From Gammaproteobacteria bacterium (GTDB taxonomy: Bacteria > Pseudomonadota > Gammaproteobacteria > Ga0077554 > Ga007554), in NCBI GenBank assembly GCA_021731145.1, contig JAKFXX010000039.1, positions 1 through 49,482 of the forward strand: 49,482 bases of DNA, in the 5' to 3' direction. This document shows positions 15,585 to 44,142 of the stretch, in pieces. Under the pieces are notes generated by a model. That model did not search any database and was not told the DNA's origin. It saw only the letters and a program-made list of their open reading frames with translations. Position 1 is the first letter of the stretch. Each line of letters opens with the position of its first letter. The translations under genes and the position numbers were made by a program.

Positions 15585-15688
15585 TTAGTACATGAACACA
15601 TAAATTGTGCAGCGTAATGCCGCACGATTGTAGGTCGGCCTTCAGGCCGACATGTCTGGCTAAAGCCAGACCTACATGGGATTCGGTT
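15585..15688. repeat. Truncated MITE-like element, copy 1
   Basis: This is an inverted copy of the element at 36369-36504, nearly identical over about 100 bp. It starts with the terminal sequence TTAGTACATGAACACATAAA, then carries two adjacent hairpins, GTCGGCC-TT-CAGGCCGAC-like and GTCTGGC-TAAA-GCCAGAC. The match ends after GGGATTCGG, so the other terminal repeat is missing. The loss ends about 20 bp before the cytochrome-porin start. The loop of the second hairpin is flipped relative to copy 2. Confidence 0.85.
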
Positions 15689-15710
15689 ATTGATTAACAG
15701 CGAGGGAACC

Positions 15711-17448: not shown

Positions 17449-19528
<2,080 letters not shown>

Positions 19529-25792: not shown

Positions 25793-28123
25793 ATGGCGAC
25801 TGACCCAGTGTGCGGCATGACAGTGGACGAAAAAAGTGCGGTGGATAGCACCATCTACGGCGGACAGACGTACTACTTCTGTTCCGCTCGCTGCCTCAGC
25901 CAATTCCAGGCCAATCCTGCGAAGTTCGCCGGTGGGTCCAAGCGGGCCGCCACTGCCCATGCCCACGGCCAAACGATGACCGCACAGCCGGAAAAAGCCA
26001 ACGGCAAGACAATGGCCAAGGACCCCATTTGCGGCATGCCAGTGGACAAAGCCACCGCGCTCAAATCGGAGCGCGCCGGTCGCGTCTATTATTTTTGCAG
26101 CGTGGGCTGCCAGCGCACCTTCGAGTCACCCGAGCAAGAACTCAAGTCCATGCGCGGCCGCGTGGCCATCGCGCTCACCGGTGTGCTGGCGCTCGCCATC
26201 CTGCGCGCAGCGGCCTTCCTCGCCCTCGCCGCAGGGGCGACGATTGTCACCTGGGTGCCGATCCCAGCGCTGCCCTGGTTCACCTGGGGCATGTGGCTGT
26301 TCCTGCTGGTGACGCCAGTGCAGTTCATCGGCGGCTGGAGCTTCTACAAGGGCGCGTGGAACGCGATGCGCACCCGCAGCATCAACATGGATTTCCTGAT
26401 CGCGCTCGGCACCTCGGTAGCCTATTTCTACAGTGTGGCGGTGCTGTTCTTCCCCGAGGTGTTGCCGGTCGAGGTGGAAGAGCGCGACGTGTATTTCGAA
26501 GTCTCCGCCGTCATCATTGCCTTCGTGCTGCTGGGCAAGTACATGGAGGAGATCATCAAGAAGCGCTCCTCGGCGGCGGTGCGCAAGCTCCTGGACCTGA
26601 AGCCCGCCGTCGCCCACGTCATCCGGGAAGGCGCCGAAATGGAGATGCCCGCCGAGTCGGTGATGGTGGACGAGACCGTGGTGGTGCGGCCCGGCGAGAA
26701 AATCCCCACCGACGGCCTGGTGCTGGAGGGCAACTCCTCGGTGGACGAGTCGATGCTCACCGGCGAGTCCATGCCGGTGGAAAAGGCAGCGGGCAGCGCG
26801 GTGATCGGCGGAACGATCAATCGCACCGGCCTGTTCCGCTTCAAGGCGACGCGGGTCGGGGCTGAGACGGCGCTGGCCCAGATCATCAAGATGGTGGAGG
26901 ACGCCCAGGCCAGCACCGCAGCCGTGCAGCGCCTCGCCGACAAGGTGACCGCATATTTCGTCCCGGCGGTGGTGGCGATCGCTTTCCTGGCTTTTTTCAG
27001 TTGGTGGGCGGCCGGCAATTTCCCGCAGGGACTTCTCGCCTTCATCGCGGTGCTGATCATCTCCTGCCCGTGCGCGCTGGGCGTCGCCACGCCGGCGGCG
27101 CTCATGGTGGGTGTGGGCAAGGGGGCCGAAGCCGGCATCCTGATCCGCGGCGCCGAAGTGCTGGAGCGCGCGGAAAAGCTCACCACGGTGGTGTTCGACA
27201 AGACCGGCACACTCACCCGGGGCGAGCCCACCGTTACCGATATCGTTGCGCTCGGCGCGGCAACGGAGGAAGAAATCCTGCGCCTTGCCGCCGCGGTCGA
27301 GGCCGGTTCCGAGCATCCCTTGGGCGAAGCGATCGTACGCGCCGCGCAACAGCGCGAACTGGCGTTGCCGAAGGTGGCGGGCTTCGAGGCCATTCCCGGC
27401 CACGGCATCCGCGGCCGCGTCGATGACAGGGCCGCGCTGCTCGGCAACCGCCGCCTGTTCGCGCGCGAGAACATTGATGTGGCTGCGGCCGAAGCCGCCA
27501 TGACCCGGCTGGAGACGGAAGGCAAGACCGCCATGCTGGTCGGCATGAATGGCGCACTGTCTGGCATCATCGCCGTCGCCGACACCTTGAAACCGGAGGC
27601 ACAGGAGGCGGTATCCGCGCTGAAGCAAGAAGGCATCGAGGTGATTCTGCTCACCGGCGACAACCAGCGCACCGCGCACACCATCGCCGCGCAACTCGGC
27701 ATAGCACAAGTGATTGCGGAGGTGCTGCCGGGCGACAAGGCGCGCATCATTCAAGAACTGCAGCAACAAGGCAAGGCGGTCGCCATGGTGGGCGACGGCG
27801 TCAACGACGCGCCGGCGCTCGCGGTAGCCGACATTGGCATCGCCATCGGCTCCGGCTCCGACGTGGCGAAGGAGACTGGCGGCATCGTCCTGATCAAGAA
27901 CGACGTGCGCGACGTGGTCGCGTCGATCCGGCTGTCGCGCGCCACGATGCGCAAGATCAAGCAGAACCTGTTCTGGGCCTTCATCTACAACACCATCGGT
28001 ATCCCGGTGGCGGCCTTGGGATTTTTGAACCCGATTATCGCGGCTGCGGCAATGGCCTTGAGTTCGTTGTCGGTGATTGTGAATTCGGCGCTGCTAAAGC
28101 GCTTGAAATTCTCTGCGGGCTGA
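25793..28123 (+). CDS. copA: CopA-type Cu(I) P1B-ATPase with two N-terminal YHS domains
   Basis: The 776-residue pump exports Cu(I) from the cytoplasm using ATP. Two YHS domains (C7/C30/C34 and C80/C102/C106) replace the usual CxxC metal-binding domains. Core motifs: TGES (in [11 protein letters not shown]), CPC at 425-427, phosphorylated D469 in DKTGT, EHPLGEA and [11 protein letters not shown]. The final two helices have FIYNTIGIP and [12 protein letters not shown], the Asn and Met/Ser-Ser ligands of the Cu(I) subgroup. The ATG follows AGGAGG. YHS domain 1 has the same cysteine spacing as the YHS domain on AtpD. Confidence 0.97.
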
Positions 28124-29005: not shown

Positions 29006-29550
29006 AAACGACCTGTTTGAGAAACCTGCTGTTTAGCCTGTTGGCCGGCATTCTGAGTGTGCTGCCTGCGCTGTCATATGCCGCCGTGCACGACCGCATG
29101 GATGCAGGAGGTAGAGCAACGCAAGGAGCAGTTGCCGAGGACGCACAAGTGCCGCGAGAGCCAGAGATGGCGGGAGCGGCCGCCGCGCCAACCAGTGCAA
29201 CCGCGCCGGTGAAGATGAGCGGCGGGTCGTACACGAACGTCACGCCCGCGCGGCTCAAGCAAATGCTCGCGGCAAAGGATTTCCTGTTCGTCAACGTCCA
29301 CATTCCATACGAAGGCGAAATCGCGCCGACGGACGCGTTCATTCCGTACGACGAGGTGGAGAGAAACCGGTCCAAGTTTCCGCTGGACAAGGGCGCGAAA
29401 ATCTTTTTGTATTGCCGCACCGGCAGAATGAGCGCGATCGCCGCCGAAAAGTTGGTGCAACTCGGTTATACCAACGTGTGGAATCTCCAGGGCGGAATGG
29501 TCGCGTGGGAGGAAGCCGGGTTACCAGTTGCCATTCAGAAACCGCGCTGA
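29002..29550 (+). CDS. Periplasmic rhodanese-domain protein carrying the in-frame repeat
   Basis: The 182-residue protein has a signal peptide (about 1-28). A single rhodanese domain spans about 78-175 with the active-site loop CRTGRMS (C138) and the C-terminal pattern GYTNVWNLQGGMVAWEEAGLP. Residues 30-47, right after the predicted cleavage site, are encoded by the 54-bp repeat shared with atpD. An Ala/Pro linker follows. It could transfer sulfur or bind Cu(I) in the periplasm; the role is not established. It is last in the copper operon. Confidence 0.85.
   Translation: MKTTCLRNLLFSLLAGILSVLPALSYAAVHDRMDAGGRATQGAVAEDAQVPREPEMAGAAAAPTSATAPVKMSGGSYTNVTPARLKQMLAAKDFLFVNVHIPYEGEIAPTDAFIPYDEVERNRSKFPLDKGAKIFLYCRTGRMSAIAAEKLVQLGYTNVWNLQGGMVAWEEAGLPVAIQKPR
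29088..29141 (+). repeat. 54-bp repeat inserted in frame in the rhodanese gene, copy 2
   Basis: It is 52/54 identical to 18018-18071, in the same orientation and the same reading frame. It carries the same GGCAAC/GTTGCC-type hairpin (here AGCAAC on the left arm). It lies at the start of the mature protein, where an added peptide would be tolerated. Confidence 0.9.
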
Positions 29551-35697: not shown

Positions 35698-36345
35698 TTA
35701 ATCCTGCCTGCCAAACAACCAGGGCGCCTCAGCGCCGCGCTTCTTTTCATACGTCTTGATGTCGTCCACATATTGCAATGTAAGACCAATATCATCCAGC
35801 CCATTGAGCAGGCAATGCTTGCGGAATGCGTCAACCTCGAACGTCAACAACTCGCCGCCAGGTGTCGCCACCGCTTGCTGCTCCAGGTCCACCGTCAGCA
35901 TATACCCTGGCTGCGCTTCAACTTCCTTGAACAGCCCGTCTACGCTGCCGACATCAAGCACCAGCGGCAACAAGCCATTTTTGAAACAGTTATTATAAAA
36001 AATATCCGCGAAACTGGGCGCGATAATCACACGGAAACCATAGTCCTGCAACGCCCAAGGGGCGTGTTCGCGTGATGAACCGCAGCCGAAATTGGCGCGT
36101 GCCAGCAAGATCCTCGCGCCTTGATAGCGCGGCTGGTTGAGCACGAAGTCGGGGTTCAATGGGCGCGCGCTGCTATCCTGATCCGGCTCGCCGTGATCCA
36201 GGTAACGCCACTCGTCAAACAGGTTCGGCCCAAAACCGGTACGCTTGATGGATTTCAGAAATTGCTTGGGTATGATCGCATCCGTGTCCACATTGGGACG
36301 GTCCAGGGGCGCCACAACACCTGTCAATCGAATAAATTTTTCCAT
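35698..36345 (-). CDS. leuD: 3-isopropylmalate dehydratase small subunit
   Basis: LeuD pairs with LeuC to isomerise isopropylmalate. The 215-residue protein has the family blocks [29 protein letters not shown] and [21 protein letters not shown]. It is complete. Its partner leuC, usually just upstream, is not in the window; a MITE-like element and a polysaccharide cluster occupy that place. Confidence 0.97.
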
Positions 36346-36368
36346 ATAGACCCTTTACGAAAATCAAG

Positions 36369-36504
36369 CTAGTACATGAAATTATAAATTACGAAACATG
36401 ATCCGAATCCCGTGTAGGTCTGGCTAAAGCCAGACATGTCGGCCTGAAGGCCGACCTACAATCGTGCGGCATTACGCTGCACAATTTATGTGTTCATGTA
36501 CTAG
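36369..36504. mobile_element. MITE-like element, complete copy (136 bp)
   Basis: The ends are 12-bp perfect inverted repeats, CTAGTACATGAA and TTCATGTACTAG. Inside are two adjacent strong hairpins (GTCTGGC/GCCAGAC and GTCGGCC/GGCCGAC) and a TGCGGCATTACGCTGCA segment. No ORF fits. About 100 bp is repeated, inverted, at 15585-15688. It has no transposase of its own. CTAG or TA at the ends may be the target duplication. Confidence 0.88.
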
Positions 36505-36536
36505 TTTCTGTGAACCAACGCCCTCTGCGTTAAAGA

Positions 36537-37682
36537 TTACGCAATGCTCAGCGTTTTCTCAGCCACCTTTTCCCAGGCGAATTCGGCGAACACTCTCTTG
36601 CAGCCATGGGCACCAAACTGACTGGCCAATTCCGGAGAACCAAGCAAGCCAACCAACCCCTTAACAACATCCTCGGCTGATGTCCCATCAACGCGCAAAC
36701 CGGTAACACCATCAAGCACCGCCGAGCCTGTCCCGCCCGCCTGTCCCGCCAAAACAGGCTTGCCACACGCCGAGGCCTCCAAAAATACCATGCCAAACCC
36801 TTCATTATCACCGTTTATTTCACGATTGGGCATGGCGAATACATCAGCCGCATTATACCAGCGAGGAAGATCATCCGGGATAACATGCCCCAATAAATGT
36901 ACCCGGTCTGACACACCGGCATCGCGCGCCAAAGAAGCCAGATAATCATGGTCTTCGCCGACACCAATAATTGCGTAATGAACATCGATGCCCTGCTCCA
37001 ACAGGATCGGCAGCGCCTTGACGACCTGGTCAAATCCCTTGCGGCGGCTCAGGCGCCCCACTGACAAAATCAGCTTTTGATTTTCCGCCAGCCCGATGGA
37101 TACACGCAAATCCGCAACTTCCAAGCCGGGATGGAAGCGATCAATATCCACGCCAGGAGAAATAAGCGAGATCTTATTCGCCCGAACACCAAGCTTGAGT
37201 AGCTCGTCACGGGTGAAATCACTGTTGGCAATGACTCGATCCGCGTGCTTATAGGTAAACACCATTGCCTGAAATTTCCCCGACTGACGCCAGGTCGTGA
37301 TCTCCTCACCGTGAGCATAAACCACGATTGGACGGCGAACCAGCCGCGCCACCACCCAACCCACCAAACCTTCCGGCAGTACCCGCCCGGCATGAATGGC
37401 ATCGAACTTGTTCTGTAGCGCAAGCCGCAGCGACCTACCCAATAGCTTGCCATACATCGCCAGGGATTCCGGCTTCAGCCACCAATGGCGGCGCAATGAG
37501 ATACGATGAATGCTATTCGGATGGTGCGCGTCATACGCTTCGGCACCGGTCACATCCGCCGTTACAATATGAATCTCCTTGCCGCCAATACGTTTGTAAA
37601 CCTCGTCAAACCACACCGCCGTTCCTCCTTTCGTAGGCAGGAACAACTCTGTAATTACCAGATACCGATGCGGTTTATCCAT
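36537..37682 (-). CDS. Family 4 glycosyltransferase
   Basis: The start at 37682 (MDKPHRYLVITELFLP) overlaps the upstream GT2 gene by 8 bp and gives 381 residues. It has the GT-B pattern: N-terminal GGTAVWFDEV acceptor region, SVGRLSRRKGFDQVVKALP, and the nucleotide-sugar E-x7-E-like motif in NEGFGMVFLEASACGKPVLAG. It probably adds a sugar from a UDP- or GDP-donor to a surface polysaccharide or lipid-linked glycan at the cytoplasmic face. Donor and acceptor are unknown. Confidence 0.9.
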   Translation of the reverse strand: MDKPHRYLVITELFLPTKGGTAVWFDEVYKRIGGKEIHIVTADVTGAEAYDAHHPNSIHRISLRRHWWLKPESLAMYGKLLGRSLRLALQNKFDAIHAGRVLPEGLVGWVVARLVRRPIVVYAHGEEITTWRQSGKFQAMVFTYKHADRVIANSDFTRDELLKLGVRANKISLISPGVDIDRFHPGLEVADLRVSIGLAENQKLILSVGRLSRRKGFDQVVKALPILLEQGIDVHYAIIGVGEDHDYLASLARDAGVSDRVHLLGHVIPDDLPRWYNAADVFAMPNREINGDNEGFGMVFLEASACGKPVLAGQAGGTGSAVLDGVTGLRVDGTSAEDVVKGLVGLLGSPELASQFGAHGCKRVFAEFAWEKVAEKTLSIA

Positions 37683-38628
37683 GGTTTTTTCCCTTGCCGG
37701 CACCGCGCATTATCGAGAGTAGATCACGCAGGGTTGTAAAACCGGGGCTGGCAATGAGAGAGGGCAGAACAGCGCGGATCGCTTCGCCCTGCCTGCCCTG
37801 CCGAAGCAGCACATAGGCCAGATTCAGCCGGGCGCGCCGCAATCGGCCCCGCCAGCCGCGTTTTATCAGCGCGGGGGCGCTGACCAAAGCGTCTTTCAGG
37901 GGAAGCAGCGCCTCCACGGTAAGCTGCTGGGCACGCAACGGATCCGAGCGCGTCACGCTATTGCCATGGATAAAATAGACGGCCATCGGCTCACAAACCA
38001 CGCCGATATTCTTGCTTTGAGCACAGAGGCGGATCAGAAAATTGACGTCCTCGCATACGCGGCGGCCCACCGGGTAACCACCCAATTCCAGAAAGGTTTT
38101 GCGTGGCACGCTCAAGGTGTGTGTGTCCCCAAAATGATTTTCAATATACAGGCTGATTTCACCCTCCTCCATGAGTATTTCGCGTCGCCCGGCGGCCCTT
38201 TTCAAAACCATTGAGCCTGCCTCGGTTTTTTCCATGGACCGGCTGATCAGACTACCGTCGGAGCGAACATAATCGTAATCACCCGTCAGAAAATCCAGCG
38301 CAGTATCGCGCGCTATCCATTCAGCATGCAGCCGCAACCGGTCAGGATAATACCAATCATCCGCGTCGAGAAATGCCAGCCACTCGCCTGTCGCAAGCTG
38401 TGCCCCAGCATTACGCGCGGCGGAGACCCCGGCGTTCGACTGATACACATAACGCACACGCCCGCCAAATTGCGCCACCTCCACGGCTGTTGTGTCGGTG
38501 GAGCCGTCATCCACCACAATCAATTCAAGCGCGGGATAGGTTTGCGACAACACCGATTCAACGGCGCGGCGAATAGTGTTTGCGCCGTTATAAACGGCGA
38601 TAATGACGGAGAAAGCAGGCTTACCCAT
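37675..38628 (-). CDS. Family 2 glycosyltransferase
   Basis: The 317-residue GT-A enzyme has FSVIIAVYNGANTIRRAVES, the VVDDGSTD motif and the metal-binding LDADDWYYP. The C-terminal 80 residues are basic and lack clear membrane helices. It overlaps the deacetylase-like gene upstream and the GT4 gene downstream, indicating one operon for surface glycan synthesis. Confidence 0.9.
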   Translation of the reverse strand: MGKPAFSVIIAVYNGANTIRRAVESVLSQTYPALELIVVDDGSTDTTAVEVAQFGGRVRYVYQSNAGVSAARNAGAQLATGEWLAFLDADDWYYPDRLRLHAEWIARDTALDFLTGDYDYVRSDGSLISRSMEKTEAGSMVLKRAAGRREILMEEGEISLYIENHFGDTHTLSVPRKTFLELGGYPVGRRVCEDVNFLIRLCAQSKNIGVVCEPMAVYFIHGNSVTRSDPLRAQQLTVEALLPLKDALVSAPALIKRGWRGRLRRARLNLAYVLLRQGRQGEAIRAVLPSLIASPGFTTLRDLLSIMRGAGKGKNHG

Positions 38629-39856
38629 TGCCCTTCACGCCCCCGCAAAAAAGACGCGCCGTGAAAAATAATAGCGCCCCAGGGACTATGGCGCCCGTCA
38701 GCCACGCCAACTTCCACAAACGGGGCACTTCGCGCGACCGCAGCAGCCACACGGCTATCCGGCGCATCACATTAACTTCCACCAGGCTTGTGTCAGCAAT
38801 GCTCATGCGGTGCGCAAGCTGTTCAGTGGATGTAAAGATCACGTCCGGAAAACGCTGCAATGCCCCGGCGATTAACCCATCAAGCTCGTTGAGCGCCGCA
38901 TCCGCCACATCCGGATCGTCAACAAAGTTAAAGCGGTGCGTCTCCAGCAGGGTTGGCCGACCCATGCGGGATTTTATTTGCATCGCTGCCAATCCTTTTT
39001 CGGCCATGTGGCCGAGTGCCGGCTCAAAATAATCATCGCGCACCACATACATCACACCTCCGGCGCCAGCCTGACCGTTCAGAATAGGGCCACCATTAGC
39101 GATCAAAGCTCCGGCGTGATCACGCGCCTCATAGCGTTGACCAGGCGTGACTATGACGCGCACGCCCGCATCGGCCCACGCCTTTTCAACCACCGGATTC
39201 CAAGCGAAAGTCGGCGGCACCACAACACGCGGCGGGCAACCAAAAATCGCAATGAATGCTTCAACTTCCTCGGCCACGGTGGCATTGACCTGGCTTTCCG
39301 GAATTGGTCTGGAAGGTAGGCCGGAGGCATTCATCCAGCGGCTTTGCAGATGCGATGGCAGGCTTTCCGTTCTTGCCTCGTCGCCAGTCAGCCAGCGCCT
39401 GATATCTGGATCGAGGCTCGCAGCCGCCATCAACGCAGGTGGCCAGAAATGTTCCGTGCCATGTAGCTGAAGCGCGAACACACCCGATGCAACGCCACGC
39501 TGAATAACATCGCGCATCGCCGGATACTGAGGGTGGGAAAGCAGAACCCGGTGATAGCGCTGACAGCCTTCCTGCCGCATAAGCTCCGCATCAGGCACAG
39601 CCAACACCATCCCCAGCGTCATCACGGGAGGGTGTCCATCGCTATCCTTGTAACGCGACAACACCTTGGCGACGCGATGCAATTGCTGCGCATCCGCCTT
39701 GGGTCCAGGCCCCCAATCATCACTTTCGATAACCAGCACAGGACGACGTAACACCGGCTCGCGCCATAAGGACAGCAGATCACGACGGTAGTGCCAAATC
39801 AACACTGCGCCTGCCGTGAGCCATAGAAAAAACAATATTACGACCAAAAGTTGCAT
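38621..39856 (-). CDS. Polysaccharide deacetylase-like membrane protein
   Basis: The 411-residue protein has a membrane helix at each end (about 3-22 and 385-405), with a large domain between. VLVIESDDWGP resembles the catalytic start of NodB-like deacetylases, and LQLHGTEHFWPP and a later LETHRFNFV supply candidate metal-binding His residues. Family assignment is by these motifs and operon context, and it may be a divergent deacetylase or a non-catalytic relative. Confidence 0.7.
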   Translation of the reverse strand: MQLLVVILFFLWLTAGAVLIWHYRRDLLSLWREPVLRRPVLVIESDDWGPGPKADAQQLHRVAKVLSRYKDSDGHPPVMTLGMVLAVPDAELMRQEGCQRYHRVLLSHPQYPAMRDVIQRGVASGVFALQLHGTEHFWPPALMAAASLDPDIRRWLTGDEARTESLPSHLQSRWMNASGLPSRPIPESQVNATVAEEVEAFIAIFGCPPRVVVPPTFAWNPVVEKAWADAGVRVIVTPGQRYEARDHAGALIANGGPILNGQAGAGGVMYVVRDDYFEPALGHMAEKGLAAMQIKSRMGRPTLLETHRFNFVDDPDVADAALNELDGLIAGALQRFPDVIFTSTEQLAHRMSIADTSLVEVNVMRRIAVWLLRSREVPRLWKLAWLTGAIVPGALLFFTARLFCGGVKGNG

Positions 39857-39871
39857 TATTTTGGATAGACT

Positions 39872-40795
39872 TTAAAAGTCATACCCCATCGCGCGTGCCA
39901 CATCGGTAACCGAGGGCATGATACGCTCGATGCGCTCATGATTGCGTCCATCCCGCCATTTGTCGAGGCGGATTTCGGAAAAGGCGTTGTAAGGGGTATC
40001 AAGCACCTCCGCACAATGTCTTTCCAGCTCAGGAGTGAAGGTAAGGCCGCATGATGCAAAAGATCTTCGAAACCCCGCGACCGGATCCTTGACCAGATCC
40101 TCGTAAAATATTTCATTCCACTGCGCGGGAGGGACGAGATTACGCCCCTCGATGATCGCCTGGTTGATCGCCCTGTATTGAAAGGCACAGACTTCTTCAA
40201 CAGGGGCACGCAGATAATTTCGCCATCCTTCCGCAAGAAAAAAACACCAGCGCGCATAGCGGCCATTATCAACAGCGACGGTCTCAGGCAAATCGTTTGA
40301 CCAGGTAGCGAATTCGTCCGCCTTACCCCACCCCTCGATCAGCGAGTTGATGTTGTCGCCGGGGCTACGCTTGACATAAACAAAATGCGCATCGGGGAAA
40401 AGCGCGTAAAGATAGGGCACGCACAAACCGTTCTGATTGTTTTTGTCTACAAAACGGTGTTTTCCGGTGTTGCTATAGAAATAGCGTGAAACGGCGTCAC
40501 GGTCTTGTGGGCTGGCGTCCTGGGCATCCAACGCATGGGTATCCCAGTTTTTTTCCGGCAAAGGATGCAAATCAACCCAGAAATCATGGGTTTCACGCTG
40601 CAAGGAGCCAATTTCCAGGGATTCGGAGAACGTTTTGTACACCAGGGTAGTGCCGGCACGGCTGCATCCCAAAATAAAAATGGGGCGCTGTGCCGCAGGG
40701 CGCCTCACCCCCCAGGCCACGCCTCGCGCAGCACTCAATGTCCTGCGACCATGATAAGCTAGTGTTTTCTCAACCTTCCGCCAAAATTCACTCAC
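39872..40795 (-). CDS. Sulfotransferase family protein
   Basis: The 307-residue protein has the PAPS 5'-phosphosulfate loop PIFILGCSRAGTTLVYKTF and the 3'-phosphate motif YVKRSPGDNINSLI. These fit a sulfotransferase acting on a surface polysaccharide or lipid. It is divergent from the asparagine-synthase-like gene at 40899. A sulfated exopolysaccharide is inferred. Confidence 0.88.
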   Translation of the reverse strand: MSEFWRKVEKTLAYHGRRTLSAARGVAWGVRRPAAQRPIFILGCSRAGTTLVYKTFSESLEIGSLQRETHDFWVDLHPLPEKNWDTHALDAQDASPQDRDAVSRYFYSNTGKHRFVDKNNQNGLCVPYLYALFPDAHFVYVKRSPGDNINSLIEGWGKADEFATWSNDLPETVAVDNGRYARWCFFLAEGWRNYLRAPVEEVCAFQYRAINQAIIEGRNLVPPAQWNEIFYEDLVKDPVAGFRRSFASCGLTFTPELERHCAEVLDTPYNAFSEIRLDKWRDGRNHERIERIMPSVTDVARAMGYDF

Positions 40796-40898
40796 AACCG
40801 ACCTTGCGCCTTGGTAAAGTGTATAAATTCACCATTATACGCTAACATTTGGCACATTTTTGGTTGGCCGTGGCATTGCGTCAAAAAGAGAGTTTGAA

Positions 40899-42737
40899 AT
40901 GAGCGGGATTTGCGGCTGGATGAACAGCGCCTTCGCATCGCATGAGGCGGATGCACTATTGGCAGACATGCTCCATAACCTTGGCGGCAACCAGGATGCT
41001 ACCCTCGCGCCTCGCGCGCGGGACACAAACAGCGGGCTGGCGACATGCTCCCGATTTGCGCTCGCCAGCCTGCACCAAGAGTACGGCATCAAGGTCGCAG
41101 TGGAGGGCCGGATTCATTGGCGATCCGACACCTTGGAAGCCCTTTCCCGCAAGCAAGGTTCCGCTGCCGCCACCGCGCTGGCCTATCAGCGTAGCGATCT
41201 GGATTTTCTCCAGGAAATCCACGGGCCGTTCGCACTCGCCATCATCGACGCCAGCCAAAATCAGGCACTACTGGCAATAGACCGGCTGGGCATCCAGCCG
41301 CTGTGCTACGCCCACATTGATAGCCAGCTCGTGTTCGGCTCTACGACGGACAGCGTTATCGCGCATCCCGCCATCAACCGCATGCTCGACCCGCAAGCGA
41401 TTTTCAACTATCTGTACTGCCACATGGTGCCGAGTCCGGGCAGTATTTATCAGGGCGTACAAAAGCTGCTGCCGGGACAGTACGCCCTTTTCCGCAATGG
41501 ACAGATTGAAAAAGAGTTCTACTGGCGACTCCATTACCAGGATGGAGATCACGAATCACAGGCGGCACTGACATCGCGGTTCCGCCAGATCTTGAGCGAA
41601 TCCGTCCAGCGCGCTGTTACCCGCAATGAAGTAGGGGCGTTTCTCAGCGGCGGCACTGACAGCTCGACCGTCTCAGGCACGCTCGGAGAGGTGCTTGGCA
41701 AACCTGCGGACACCTATTCCATAGGATTTCAGGCCGAGGGCTTTGATGAAATCGAATATGCGCGTATCACCGCCCGTCACTTTGGCGCCCGCACCCATGA
41801 ATATTATGTAACTCCGCAGGACGTGGTGGACGCCATCCCACTCATCGCCAAAGCCTATGATGAACCCTTTGGCAACGCCTCCGCCGTCCCCACTTATTAT
41901 TGCGCGAAGATGGCGCGCGAAGACGGCATTCAACTCATGCTGGCGGGCGACGGCGGAGACGAGATCTTCGGCGGTAACGCGCGCTATGCCAAGCAGAAGG
42001 TGTTTGAGTTTTATTCGCTGCCACCCAAGGCGCTGCGGCAAAGGTTGATTGAGCCATTGGCGTTCGCCATGCCGGGAATAGGCCCCATCCAGAAACTGCA
42101 AAGTTACATCCGACAGGCCCAAGTGCCGCTACCCGACCGGCTGGAAGCCTACAACTTCCTGCACCGCACCCCGCTTGCAGAGATCTTCATGGAGGACTTT
42201 CTCGGCCTGATCAATCAAGAAGCACCGGTGGAACTGATGCGCGAGGTCTACCAGCGCACGCGCTCAAACTCGCCGGTCAACCGCATGATGCATCTTGACC
42301 TCAAGCAGACACTCGCCGACAACGACCTGCGCAAGGTGAATCGCATGTGCGAGCTGGCGGGCGTGGAGGTGCATTATCCGTTGCTGGATGAGGCCATGGT
42401 GGAGTTTTCCGCCCAGGTGCCTGCAGCCCTGCAAGTAAAGGGCTTCAAGTTACGCTATTTCTTTAAAGAAGCGCTACGCGACTTTCTGCCGCCGGAGACC
42501 ATCACCAAGACCAAGCAAGGCTTTGGCCTGCCTTTCGGAGTATGGATGAATCAACATGCGCCGTTGCGGGAACTCGCTTACGACAGCCTGCGATCATTCC
42601 GGCAACGCAACTATCTTAAACCCAGCTATCTCGACCAGTTGATTGAGCAGCACCGTTCCGGCCATGCCTCCTATTATGGCGTGATGATCTGGGTGGTGAT
42701 GATGCTGGAACAGTGGCTGCAGACGCGGAAACTGTAA
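40899..42737 (+). CDS. Asparagine-synthase-like protein with degenerate glutaminase domain
   Basis: Start at 40899 gives MSGICGWMNS. Glutamine-dependent asparagine synthases start MCGI with Cys2 as nucleophile; here residue 2 is Ser, and the FNGEIYN-type motif is replaced by VEGRIHW. The synthase domain is intact: GAFLSGGTDSSTVSG (pyrophosphate loop), LAGDGGDEIFGGN and YPLLDEAMVEFS. At 612 residues it has normal length. It may use free ammonia, a partner glutaminase, or another amine, in the surface-polysaccharide pathway (inference). It is divergent from the four minus-strand glycan genes. Confidence 0.9.
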   Translation: MSGICGWMNSAFASHEADALLADMLHNLGGNQDATLAPRARDTNSGLATCSRFALASLHQEYGIKVAVEGRIHWRSDTLEALSRKQGSAAATALAYQRSDLDFLQEIHGPFALAIIDASQNQALLAIDRLGIQPLCYAHIDSQLVFGSTTDSVIAHPAINRMLDPQAIFNYLYCHMVPSPGSIYQGVQKLLPGQYALFRNGQIEKEFYWRLHYQDGDHESQAALTSRFRQILSESVQRAVTRNEVGAFLSGGTDSSTVSGTLGEVLGKPADTYSIGFQAEGFDEIEYARITARHFGARTHEYYVTPQDVVDAIPLIAKAYDEPFGNASAVPTYYCAKMAREDGIQLMLAGDGGDEIFGGNARYAKQKVFEFYSLPPKALRQRLIEPLAFAMPGIGPIQKLQSYIRQAQVPLPDRLEAYNFLHRTPLAEIFMEDFLGLINQEAPVELMREVYQRTRSNSPVNRMMHLDLKQTLADNDLRKVNRMCELAGVEVHYPLLDEAMVEFSAQVPAALQVKGFKLRYFFKEALRDFLPPETITKTKQGFGLPFGVWMNQHAPLRELAYDSLRSFRQRNYLKPSYLDQLIEQHRSGHASYYGVMIWVVMMLEQWLQTRKL

Positions 42738-42764
42738 TAACCACCCAATACTGTTCACTTAACC

Positions 42765-42830
42765 GTTCGTGGTGAGCTTGTCGAACCACCAGCCACTCAT
42801 CCAGAGTTCTTCGACAAGCTCAGGGCGAGC
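42765..42830. repeat. REP-type inverted repeat
   Basis: GTTCGTGGTGAGCTTGTCGAA at the left and TTCGACAAGCTCAGGGCGAGC at the right are inverted, with about 16 matches in the core. The GAGCTTGTCGAA core is a common proteobacterial intergenic repeat. It ends at the stop codon of the response-regulator PAS protein. Confidence 0.85.
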
Positions 42831-42831
42831 G

Positions 42832-44142
42832 CTACTGGCTGCGGAATACCACCACTGCACCGGCGCTACGCTCGCCCTCGCGTAGCGGATAAGAGGAGTA
42901 TTCCACCGTAAATGTGCTGCCGTCCTGGTGCCGCAGGGTTTCGACCAGCCCACGCTGGGGAGCATCGCTGCGAAACGCAGCGCAAATGCGGCACTCTTCG
43001 ACCGGTTGGGGCGTACCGTTGGCGCGGCTGTGGTGGCTGAGTTCGTGCATCACTTGGCCGAGCAGCTCTTCGCGGACCAAGCCCAGCATCCGCAAGGCTG
43101 CATCGTTGACGAAAGTGCAACGGCCTTCGGCATCGAGACCATAGATCCCCTCGCCCACCGATTCGAGCAGCAGGAGGAATCGCTGCTCGCTCTCGCGCAG
43201 CTCCCGCTCCGCATGTCGGCGCTCCTCGATCTCCTTCATCAGGTTGGCATTGGCGGCCCGCAGCAGCCCCGTCTGTTTTTCCAGCTGGAGAGTGCGTTTT
43301 CCCACCAGCTCTTCGAGCCGATGGCGATGATTCTCGAGCTCCTCCTCGCGGCGTTTGTCCTCGGTGATATCCACCAGGATACCCTGCAGGAACAGCGGCG
43401 CGCCCGGCGCATCCTGCACCACCGTCGCCTCATCCAGGAACCAGCGCGTCTCGCCGTTACGGGTCAGCAGCCGATATTCGCAACGCAGCGGTTGCCGCTC
43501 GCCGCAACTGGCAACGAGCGCGTCGCTTAGCCGGGCGCGGTCCTCGGGGTGGACATGCTTGAGCGCTCCATCGGCCAGCCACTCTTCTGCGGAATAGCCG
43601 AGGGCGTGGACCCGTGGGCTGACATAGAGCATGTGGCCGGGCACATCCAGCGCCGCGATGTAGGCGATCGCCGGGATCTGTTCGACCAGGGTGCGATACC
43701 TGGCTTCGGCCACGCGCTTTTCGGTGCGCAGGCGCTGTTCGTCCAAGGCGCGCTCGACCACCGCCGGCAGCAGATTGAGGTACTCGCGCCCGCTGTCCTT
43801 CACCAGATAATCACGCGCCCCGCGCTTCATGGCCGCGACCGCCACGCCGACATCATCGGCGCCGGTGAGCATCAGCACCGGCGCCACAGTTTCCCTGTCT
43901 TGAGAGGTGAGCTCGGCGAGGAACTCCAGCCCATCCTGGTCCGGCAGGCGGTAATCGAGCAGCACCAGATCCGGATGTTGCTCGTGCAACAGTTGCATCC
44001 CCTGCTGCCCGGTCTCCGCTTCGATGATGAGGAAATCGTAAGCGGGGTGTTGCGCCAGCGCGCGCCGGCACGCCAGGCGGTCGACCGCATCGTCCTCGAC
44101 CAGCAACAGACGCACCGGGGTTTTGATCATGTTATTGCTCAT
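42832..44142 (-). CDS. Response regulator with two PAS domains, no output domain
   Basis: The 436-residue protein has an N-terminal receiver (phosphoacceptor D63 in LVLLDYRLP, K in YLVKDSG). A PAS/PAC domain follows at about 145-275, a coiled coil at 275-325, and a second PAS at 326-430. The last residues (GAVVVFRSQ) end where PAS domains usually continue as VVVFRDITERK. No kinase, GGDEF or other output follows; a REP repeat begins at the stop. It may be truncated or an adaptor. It overlaps the preceding regulator gene by four bases. Confidence 0.88.
   Translation of the reverse strand: MSNNMIKTPVRLLLVEDDAVDRLACRRALAQHPAYDFLIIEAETGQQGMQLLHEQHPDLVLLDYRLPDQDGLEFLAELTSQDRETVAPVLMLTGADDVGVAVAAMKRGARDYLVKDSGREYLNLLPAVVERALDEQRLRTEKRVAEARYRTLVEQIPAIAYIAALDVPGHMLYVSPRVHALGYSAEEWLADGALKHVHPEDRARLSDALVASCGERQPLRCEYRLLTRNGETRWFLDEATVVQDAPGAPLFLQGILVDITEDKRREEELENHRHRLEELVGKRTLQLEKQTGLLRAANANLMKEIEERRHAERELRESEQRFLLLLESVGEGIYGLDAEGRCTFVNDAALRMLGLVREELLGQVMHELSHHSRANGTPQPVEECRICAAFRSDAPQRGLVETLRHQDGSTFTVEYSSYPLREGERSAGAVVVFRSQ

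Follow-up and report, generated by a model that had tools for sequence, protein, structure and literature searches.

The window, a stretch of 49,482 nucleotides of a gammaproteobacterial contig, encodes a 612-amino-acid protein of the AsnB type whose N-terminal domain is, judged from its sequence, very probably unable to hydrolyze glutamine. We conclude that the protein represents a type within the AsnB family that is new and has had no name, and that it belongs to a known exosortase system, that of exosortase A (XrtA). We favor, as reasonably likely, a role as an ATP-dependent amide ligase of XrtA/PEP-CTERM exopolysaccharide synthesis, with some amine, not ammonia taken from glutamine, as its nucleophile; the enzyme would thus probably join an acid to an amine instead of making asparagine. 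Searches of an open-licence PMC library found no paper that links an AsnB subfamily without glutaminase to XrtA. The gene, its parts, and its neighbors in the window are as follows.

36537..37703, minus strand: GT4 glycosyltransferase (PF00534, 130.3 bits)
37675..38628, minus strand: GT2 glycosyltransferase (PF00535, 121.3 bits)
38621..39856, minus strand: putative CE4/NodB-like deacetylase, with a hydrophobic helix at its N terminus (motifs, AF2 model, fold match)
39872..40795, minus strand: sulfotransferase, divergent neighbor of the ligase gene (Sulfotransfer_3, 76.8 bits)
40899..42737, plus strand: candidate glutaminase-less AsnB-type ATP-dependent amide ligase, 612 amino acids (Pfam, alignment, AF2 model, fold matches)
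40899..41528, plus strand: N-terminal Ntn-type domain, about residues 1-210 (1xff fold match; catalytic residues lost)
41646..41666, plus strand: PP-loop SGGTDSS, residues 250-256 (sequence; S, G, G, D, and S kept in 54/54 class proteins)
41949..41987, plus strand: DGGDEIFGGNARY, residues 351-363, including Asn360, which is Tyr in 24/24 aligned paralogues (alignment)

The gene runs from an ATG at 40899 to a stop codon at 42735-42737, and its product begins MSGICGWMNSAFAS (MSGICGW). The listing of open reading frames also offers a longer frame with a TTG start at 40860. Because relatives commonly show M-x-G-I-[CF]-G-W or a near variant of it at the position of 40899, we prefer the ATG. The protein belongs to the PF00733 ATP-pyrophosphatase domain family both by the Pfam gathering score (Asn_synthase, residues 228-608, 286.7 bits versus a gathering score of 21) and by its PP-loop, SGGxDS, while the match to GATase_7 is limited to residues 92-152. 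Its AF2 model (pLDDT, 88.3; pTM, 0.90) retains both domains. The best solved fold for the model is TsnB9 (7ylz; Z = 33.2, 535 aligned, rmsd 3.3), and E. coli AsnB also matches (1ct9; Z = 31.4, 457 aligned, rmsd 3.3). Residues 2-210 of the model match the glutaminase domain of GlmS (1xff; Z = 17.3, 174 aligned, rmsd 3.0), and the N-terminal domain is therefore predicted to keep the Ntn fold with its catalytic residues lost.

To delimit the subfamily, we used a profile built from 20 of 32 close relatives. At E <= 1e-140, the profile matches 54 of the 369 genomes of the window's class, with one match in each; these are referred to below as carriers and their proteins as class proteins. Outside the class, the phylum sample contributes a single genome with a match to the subfamily (G747); 8 of 398 genomes in all have a match at E <= 1e-100. 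Among plasmid records, a search at E <= 1e-60 gave a single match of 29% identity, from Halorussus limi, which is annotated asnB and is not of the subfamily. In a tree of the synthase domain alone (110 rows, quick method, midpoint root), the 84 glutaminase-less rows make up one side of a single branch (SH-aLRT 99; stem, 1.46 changes per column), and the subfamily is, by this sequence comparison, one clade. An AsnB-like protein from Armatimonadetes (L062; VGFD01000057.1, 10001-11701) also starts with MSGICGW and has only Gly75 of the tested glutaminase residues. In the tree, a long branch places it outside the clade, and it possibly represents an independent loss of the glutaminase.

The original prediction, made from the window's sequence, described a protein that starts with MSGICGW, has Ser2 in place of the catalytic Cys, has lost the NGE motif, and probably does not hydrolyze glutamine. 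The frame at 40899-42737 bears out the first two points, and the loss turned out to be wider than the third implied. When the window protein is aligned to E. coli AsnB (L063), five of the six tested residues are changed: Cys1 is replaced by Ser, Asn74 by Glu, Glu76 by Arg, and Asp98 by Ser, and Arg49 falls in a deleted loop. Only Gly75 is kept, so that the NGE motif reads EGR. The N-terminal catalytic Cys of class II (Ntn) amidotransferases is found in none of the 32 close relatives and in none of the 54 class proteins, with the qualification that in 17 of the latter the start is not clear from the motif. Retention of the other residues among the class proteins is similarly low (Arg49 in 1, Asn74 in 1, Glu76 in 2, and Asp98 in 6, with Gly75 in 52), and no row retains more than one of Cys1, Arg49, Asn74, Glu76, and Asp98. 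L050 is the one exception at Glu76 among the 32 close relatives. The 24 aligned paralogues, by comparison, keep Cys1 (24), Arg49 (23), Asn74 (24), Glu76 (23), and Asp98 (24). Neither NGE[IV] nor RGP[DE] occurs in the 330 residues upstream of the PP-loop in any of the 54 class proteins. Together with the five lost residues, this backs the claim that glutamine is probably not hydrolyzed.

The weight that the original prediction placed on Ser2 did not hold up. Residue 2 drifts among S, T, A, D, and R in the 32 close relatives, is never C in them, and is more varied still in the 54 class proteins, so Ser is not conserved there and appears incidental. We also considered Ser2 as the Ntn nucleophile, which the chemistry permits, but many relatives carry D or R at this position and the other residues of the site are gone. 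A replacement nucleophile at Cys5, exposed as a new N terminus by processing, is disfavored, since 16 of the 32 close relatives have Phe at residue 5 and the 54 class proteins vary there. In one class protein (G331), an internal Met precedes the position of Cys5, and the remainder of the glutaminase site is still absent. Because the loss holds across the subfamily, a sequencing error or local artifact was rejected as its cause; a pseudogene was rejected as well, given that the relatives have open frames without stops and low dN/dS.

The synthase domain, which had been described as intact, is so in its ATP site. The PP-loop SGGxDS is present in 54 of 54 class proteins, and S234, G235, G236, D238, S239, D348, D351, E352, and K449 (E. 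coli numbering), that is, including the DGGDE stretch and Lys449, are kept in all of them. The dN/dS values of the domain are 0.07 to 0.15 in nine of ten pairs and 0.32 in the tenth; those of the first 110 residues are looser (0.08 to 0.52, with dS saturated in one pair). These sequence measures show conservation of the ATP site and purifying selection on it. What does not fit the description is that two positions conserved in paralogues are altered subfamily-wide: positions 324 and 357 (E. coli numbering) are both Asn in 54/54 class proteins, while among the 24 paralogues position 324 is Asp in 23 and Gly in 1 and position 357 is Tyr in all 24. E. coli AsnB itself has Arg at 324 and Tyr at 357. 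These two substitutions speak for an altered reaction or an altered acceptor. Five AsnB-like enzymes are reported to share a Glu-Tyr pair, Glu363-Tyr368 in the RiPP enzyme PesC, and the Y368F change is reported to have abolished PesC activity (PMC13060819); the discussion of the same paper once gives the pair as Tyr-Asp. Since the spacing of Glu352 and Tyr357 in E. coli AsnB equals that of Glu363 and Tyr368 in PesC, we infer that the two tyrosines are equivalent and that the subfamily would have replaced the PesC-type Tyr. Asn at 357 might thus mean lost or changed catalysis. TsnB9, however, carries His at the place aligned to Asn360, and Tyr at this place is therefore not universal in the superfamily.

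The subfamily belongs to the XrtA/PEP-CTERM exopolysaccharide system, as shown by shared genomes and loci. XrtA (TIGR03109) scores over the cut-off in 73 of the 369 class genomes and in none of the control genomes. It is present in 49 of the 54 carriers (odds ratio, 119; P = 7e-37, uncorrected for descent), the five carriers without XrtA over the cut-off being G050, G058, G196, G254, and G271. When genomes are counted by family label (182 families), the ligase is found in 35, XrtA in 46, and both in 33 (P = 2.5e-23). In the opposite direction, 24 of the 73 XrtA genomes have no ligase; of the 53 in which XrtA scores at least 299 bits, 45 have it. Ligase and XrtA lie on one contig in 28 genomes and within 26.1 kb of each other in 24. 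The XrtA amidotransferase (TIGR03108) occurs in 65 genomes, including 51 of the 54 carriers (all except G044, G058, and G271 by the cut-off), and 14 genomes have it without the ligase. TIGR03099 occurs in 36 genomes, including 23 of the carriers, and is absent from the other 31, the window's genome among them. In the window's genome, adjacent genes on one contig (C15) encode XrtA and TIGR03108, and the ligase gene is apart from them, on another (C25). The context of polysaccharide synthesis that had been suggested for the gene is thus supported, and the relatives place the ligase in the exosortase A pathway.

The naming of these proteins is a related matter. In a scan of NCBIfam models, the window protein passes no cut-off: its top score is to TIGR03108 (316.9 versus a cut-off of 816.9 bits), and for TIGR01536, asparagine synthase (glutamine-hydrolyzing), it reaches 258.4 bits, under the curated cut-off of 267.1. 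Ten relatives were scored, of which one (L033, 269.8) passes TIGR01536 and none passes TIGR03108. Because at least one relative passes the asparagine synthase model, such genes can be misnamed; the fold-based name cannot fit the subfamily.

In the window, the cluster with a sulfotransferase and glycosyltransferases reported earlier was confirmed, with all of these genes divergent on the opposite strand. It holds an additional neighbor, unnamed in that report, which we assign as a CE4-type deacetylase from its motifs and predicted fold. The motifs SDDWG and HGxxH are found in 18 of 18 homologues, and the AF2 model (pLDDT, 91.0) is best matched by a putative polysaccharide deacetylase (3rxz; Z = 19.8, 232 aligned, rmsd 2.6). 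In Pfam, the protein has only a subthreshold match to GH57 (19.7 versus 21.2), and another member has none. The model also fits the deacetylase domain of human NDST1, which acts on heparan sulfate (8ccy; Z = 16.5, 234 aligned, rmsd 3.7), and the deacetylase beside the sulfotransferase (38621-40795, minus strand) is possibly an N-deacetylase/N-sulfotransferase pair. PADLOC found no families of anti-phage defense, positions 36000-43500 gave no Rfam matches to RNA elements, and promoter and terminator scans of 40600-43000 showed no excess over shuffled sequences.

Elsewhere in the window, a palindromic dispersed element of 110 nt, resembling REP or MITE elements, is present at 36394-36503 and, inverted, at 15586-15695, the copies being 94% complementary; it has 33 matches in its own genome, of which 21 reach at least 93% identity across roughly 100 to 110 nt. 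A 59-nt repeat (18013-18071 and 29083-29141, 93% identical) lies inside an ATP-synthase-beta-like open reading frame and a rhodanese open reading frame and is translated as protein in both. With up to three mismatches allowed, its 45-base core is matched 12 times in the genome, and three of these matches are in tandem on contig C7 in 48-nt steps. At 17557-19125, within an ATP synthase gene cluster, a YHS domain is fused in frame to a protein of the ATP synthase alpha/beta family, and the copper-type P-ATPase at 25793-28123 has two YHS stretches.

We compared 69 loci of relatives, which are not independent of one another, over stretches of up to about 20 kb. Homologues were found of the PEP O-ligase in 45 loci, stp3 in 32, TIGR03108 in 28, the sulfotransferase in 18 (within 400 nt in 17), TIGR03098 in 13, and TIGR03099 in 11; negative results for PEP_O_lig and some other gaps in this survey stem from the overlap of stop-to-stop frames in GC-rich DNA. 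Deacetylases of the window type (24 loci) and of the PF01522 type (22 loci; one member of this cluster was run against Pfam) do not overlap and together account for 46 of the 69 loci, in 35 of them within 3 kb. The compared stretch of the other 23 has neither. A deacetylase-ligase fusion, suspected in G153, G359, and G264 from long open frames, was rejected, as the deacetylase matches lie in other frames. The exosortase A genes named by NCBIfam around the relatives are TIGR03097, TIGR04063, TIGR03108, TIGR03098, TIGR03099, TIGR03100, TIGR03101, and TIGR03088, and in Massilia-type loci the TIGR03098 ligase and the TIGR03099 decarboxylase are directly upstream. Upstream of Thiobacillus loci, a large protein of the sulfatase family (L044:3-1901, plus strand) and its homologues are found in clusters shared with the sulfotransferase; its best NCBIfam match, the arylsulfatase PRK13759, is under the cut-off.

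We propose that the synthase domain would adenylate a carboxylate and that an amine would enter directly, bypassing the glutamine tunnel, and attack the adenylate to form an amide. Because a deacetylase is frequent nearby, we suggest, more tentatively, that the amine could be an amino sugar freed of its N-acetyl group by that enzyme; deacetylase and ligase would then jointly replace the N-acyl group of a glycan precursor by a different one. In loci with an adjacent XrtA-type PLP decarboxylase (TIGR03099), the amine might alternatively derive from decarboxylation, but the absence of this decarboxylase from 31 of the 54 carriers means that such an amine cannot be the general substrate. The presence of TIGR03108 in nearly all carriers implies that another enzyme already takes care of glutamine-dependent amidation, which makes a second amidation of the glutamine type, or one with plain ammonia, less likely. 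For this reason we regard as unlikely an ammonia-dependent amidotransferase that would carry out a WbpS-like, uronamide-forming reaction with free ammonia, although the fold and the ATP site match those of amidating enzymes and the related PesC is reported to accept ammonia in place of glutamine (PMC13060819). Positions 324 and 357, which differ from those of the 24 paralogues (one with Gly at 324), also suggest a different reaction.

The co-occurrence with TIGR03108, seen also in the compared stretch of 28 of the 69 loci, could be read as dependence on a partner, with ammonia supplied by the TIGR03108 enzyme or another glutaminase, or with a heterodimer between the two. The three carriers without TIGR03108, the 14 genomes with the reverse pattern, and the finding of TIGR03108 within 3 kb in one locus only leave this reading with very little probability. 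The protein might instead be a pseudoenzyme or regulator, binding ATP or an acyl intermediate and making no amide; the main ground for keeping this reading is the replacement of Tyr357 with Asn, in view of the loss of activity reported for Y368F in PesC (PMC13060819). We consider it quite improbable, since nine ATP-site positions are kept in 54/54 proteins, dN/dS is low, and TsnB9 does with His at the aligned place.

A more specific version of the amide ligase reading is modeled on type IX secretion, which links cargo to a deacetylated, amino-acylated sugar; there, the deacetylase VimE and the aminoacyl transferase VimA are reported to prepare the linking sugar (PMC7468200). By this analogy, the ligase and the deacetylase would put an amino-acyl group or a diamine on a lipid-linked or polymer sugar, building the amine-bearing acceptor of the exosortase, and XrtA would join the C terminus of PEP-CTERM proteins to that amine. 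We hold this to be a long shot. If it were true, the attachment partner of PEP-CTERM proteins would be the ligase's product. The same paper already extended its speculation to exosortase systems, in which it pointed out asparagine synthase genes, and it describes the attachment partner of exosortase A and the decoration of the exopolysaccharide as unidentified (PMC7468200). A conserved ligase in 45 of the 53 genomes with strong XrtA matches narrows this question of attachment or decoration to one assayable enzyme.

Among known systems, the TIGR03108 XrtA amidotransferase (WbpS-like) shares with the window protein the two-domain architecture and the XrtA context, often in the same cluster. In contrast to the window protein, which keeps one of the six glutaminase residues, the two confirmed and aligned TIGR03108 members (L002, from the window's own genome, and L044, from Thiobacillus denitrificans) keep all six; in the synthase domain, the window protein has Asn for Asp and Asn for Tyr. 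The WbpS-type uronamide synthase likewise differs in having the glutaminase part that the window protein lacks. E. coli AsnB (1ct9) shares the PP-loop, Asp351, Glu352, and Lys449, whereas in the window protein the glutaminase residues are lost, Tyr357 is replaced by Asn, and the aspartate-binding region is different. TsnB9 (7ylz), deposited as a hydroxyamidotransferase, is the closest solved structure in both sequence and fold, although it is only 21% identical over the 535 aligned residues and has His where the window protein has Asn360. The AsnB fold is also shared over the whole chain by beta-lactam synthetase (Z = 29.3, 431 aligned, rmsd 3.4) and carbapenam synthetase (Z = 26.7, 460 aligned, rmsd 3.7). 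In these two enzymes the Cys is likewise lost, and the amine is used intramolecularly. Their sequences are distant (each scores 42.5 bits against the family profile), and the window has no lactam context.

Floc-forming bacteria offer a further comparison. Flocculation of Thauera is reported to require the deacetylase tmz1t_3249, which is encoded near tmz1t_3247, a gene for an asparagine synthase (PMC4784049). For floc formation, two asparagine synthases are reported to be necessary (PMC7662799, citing An 2016, on Zoogloea), and in reviews of floc formers two genes for asparagine synthase are described as required for flocs or as conserved within the cluster. We suggest that the second asparagine synthase of the floc cluster may well be of the glutaminase-less type.
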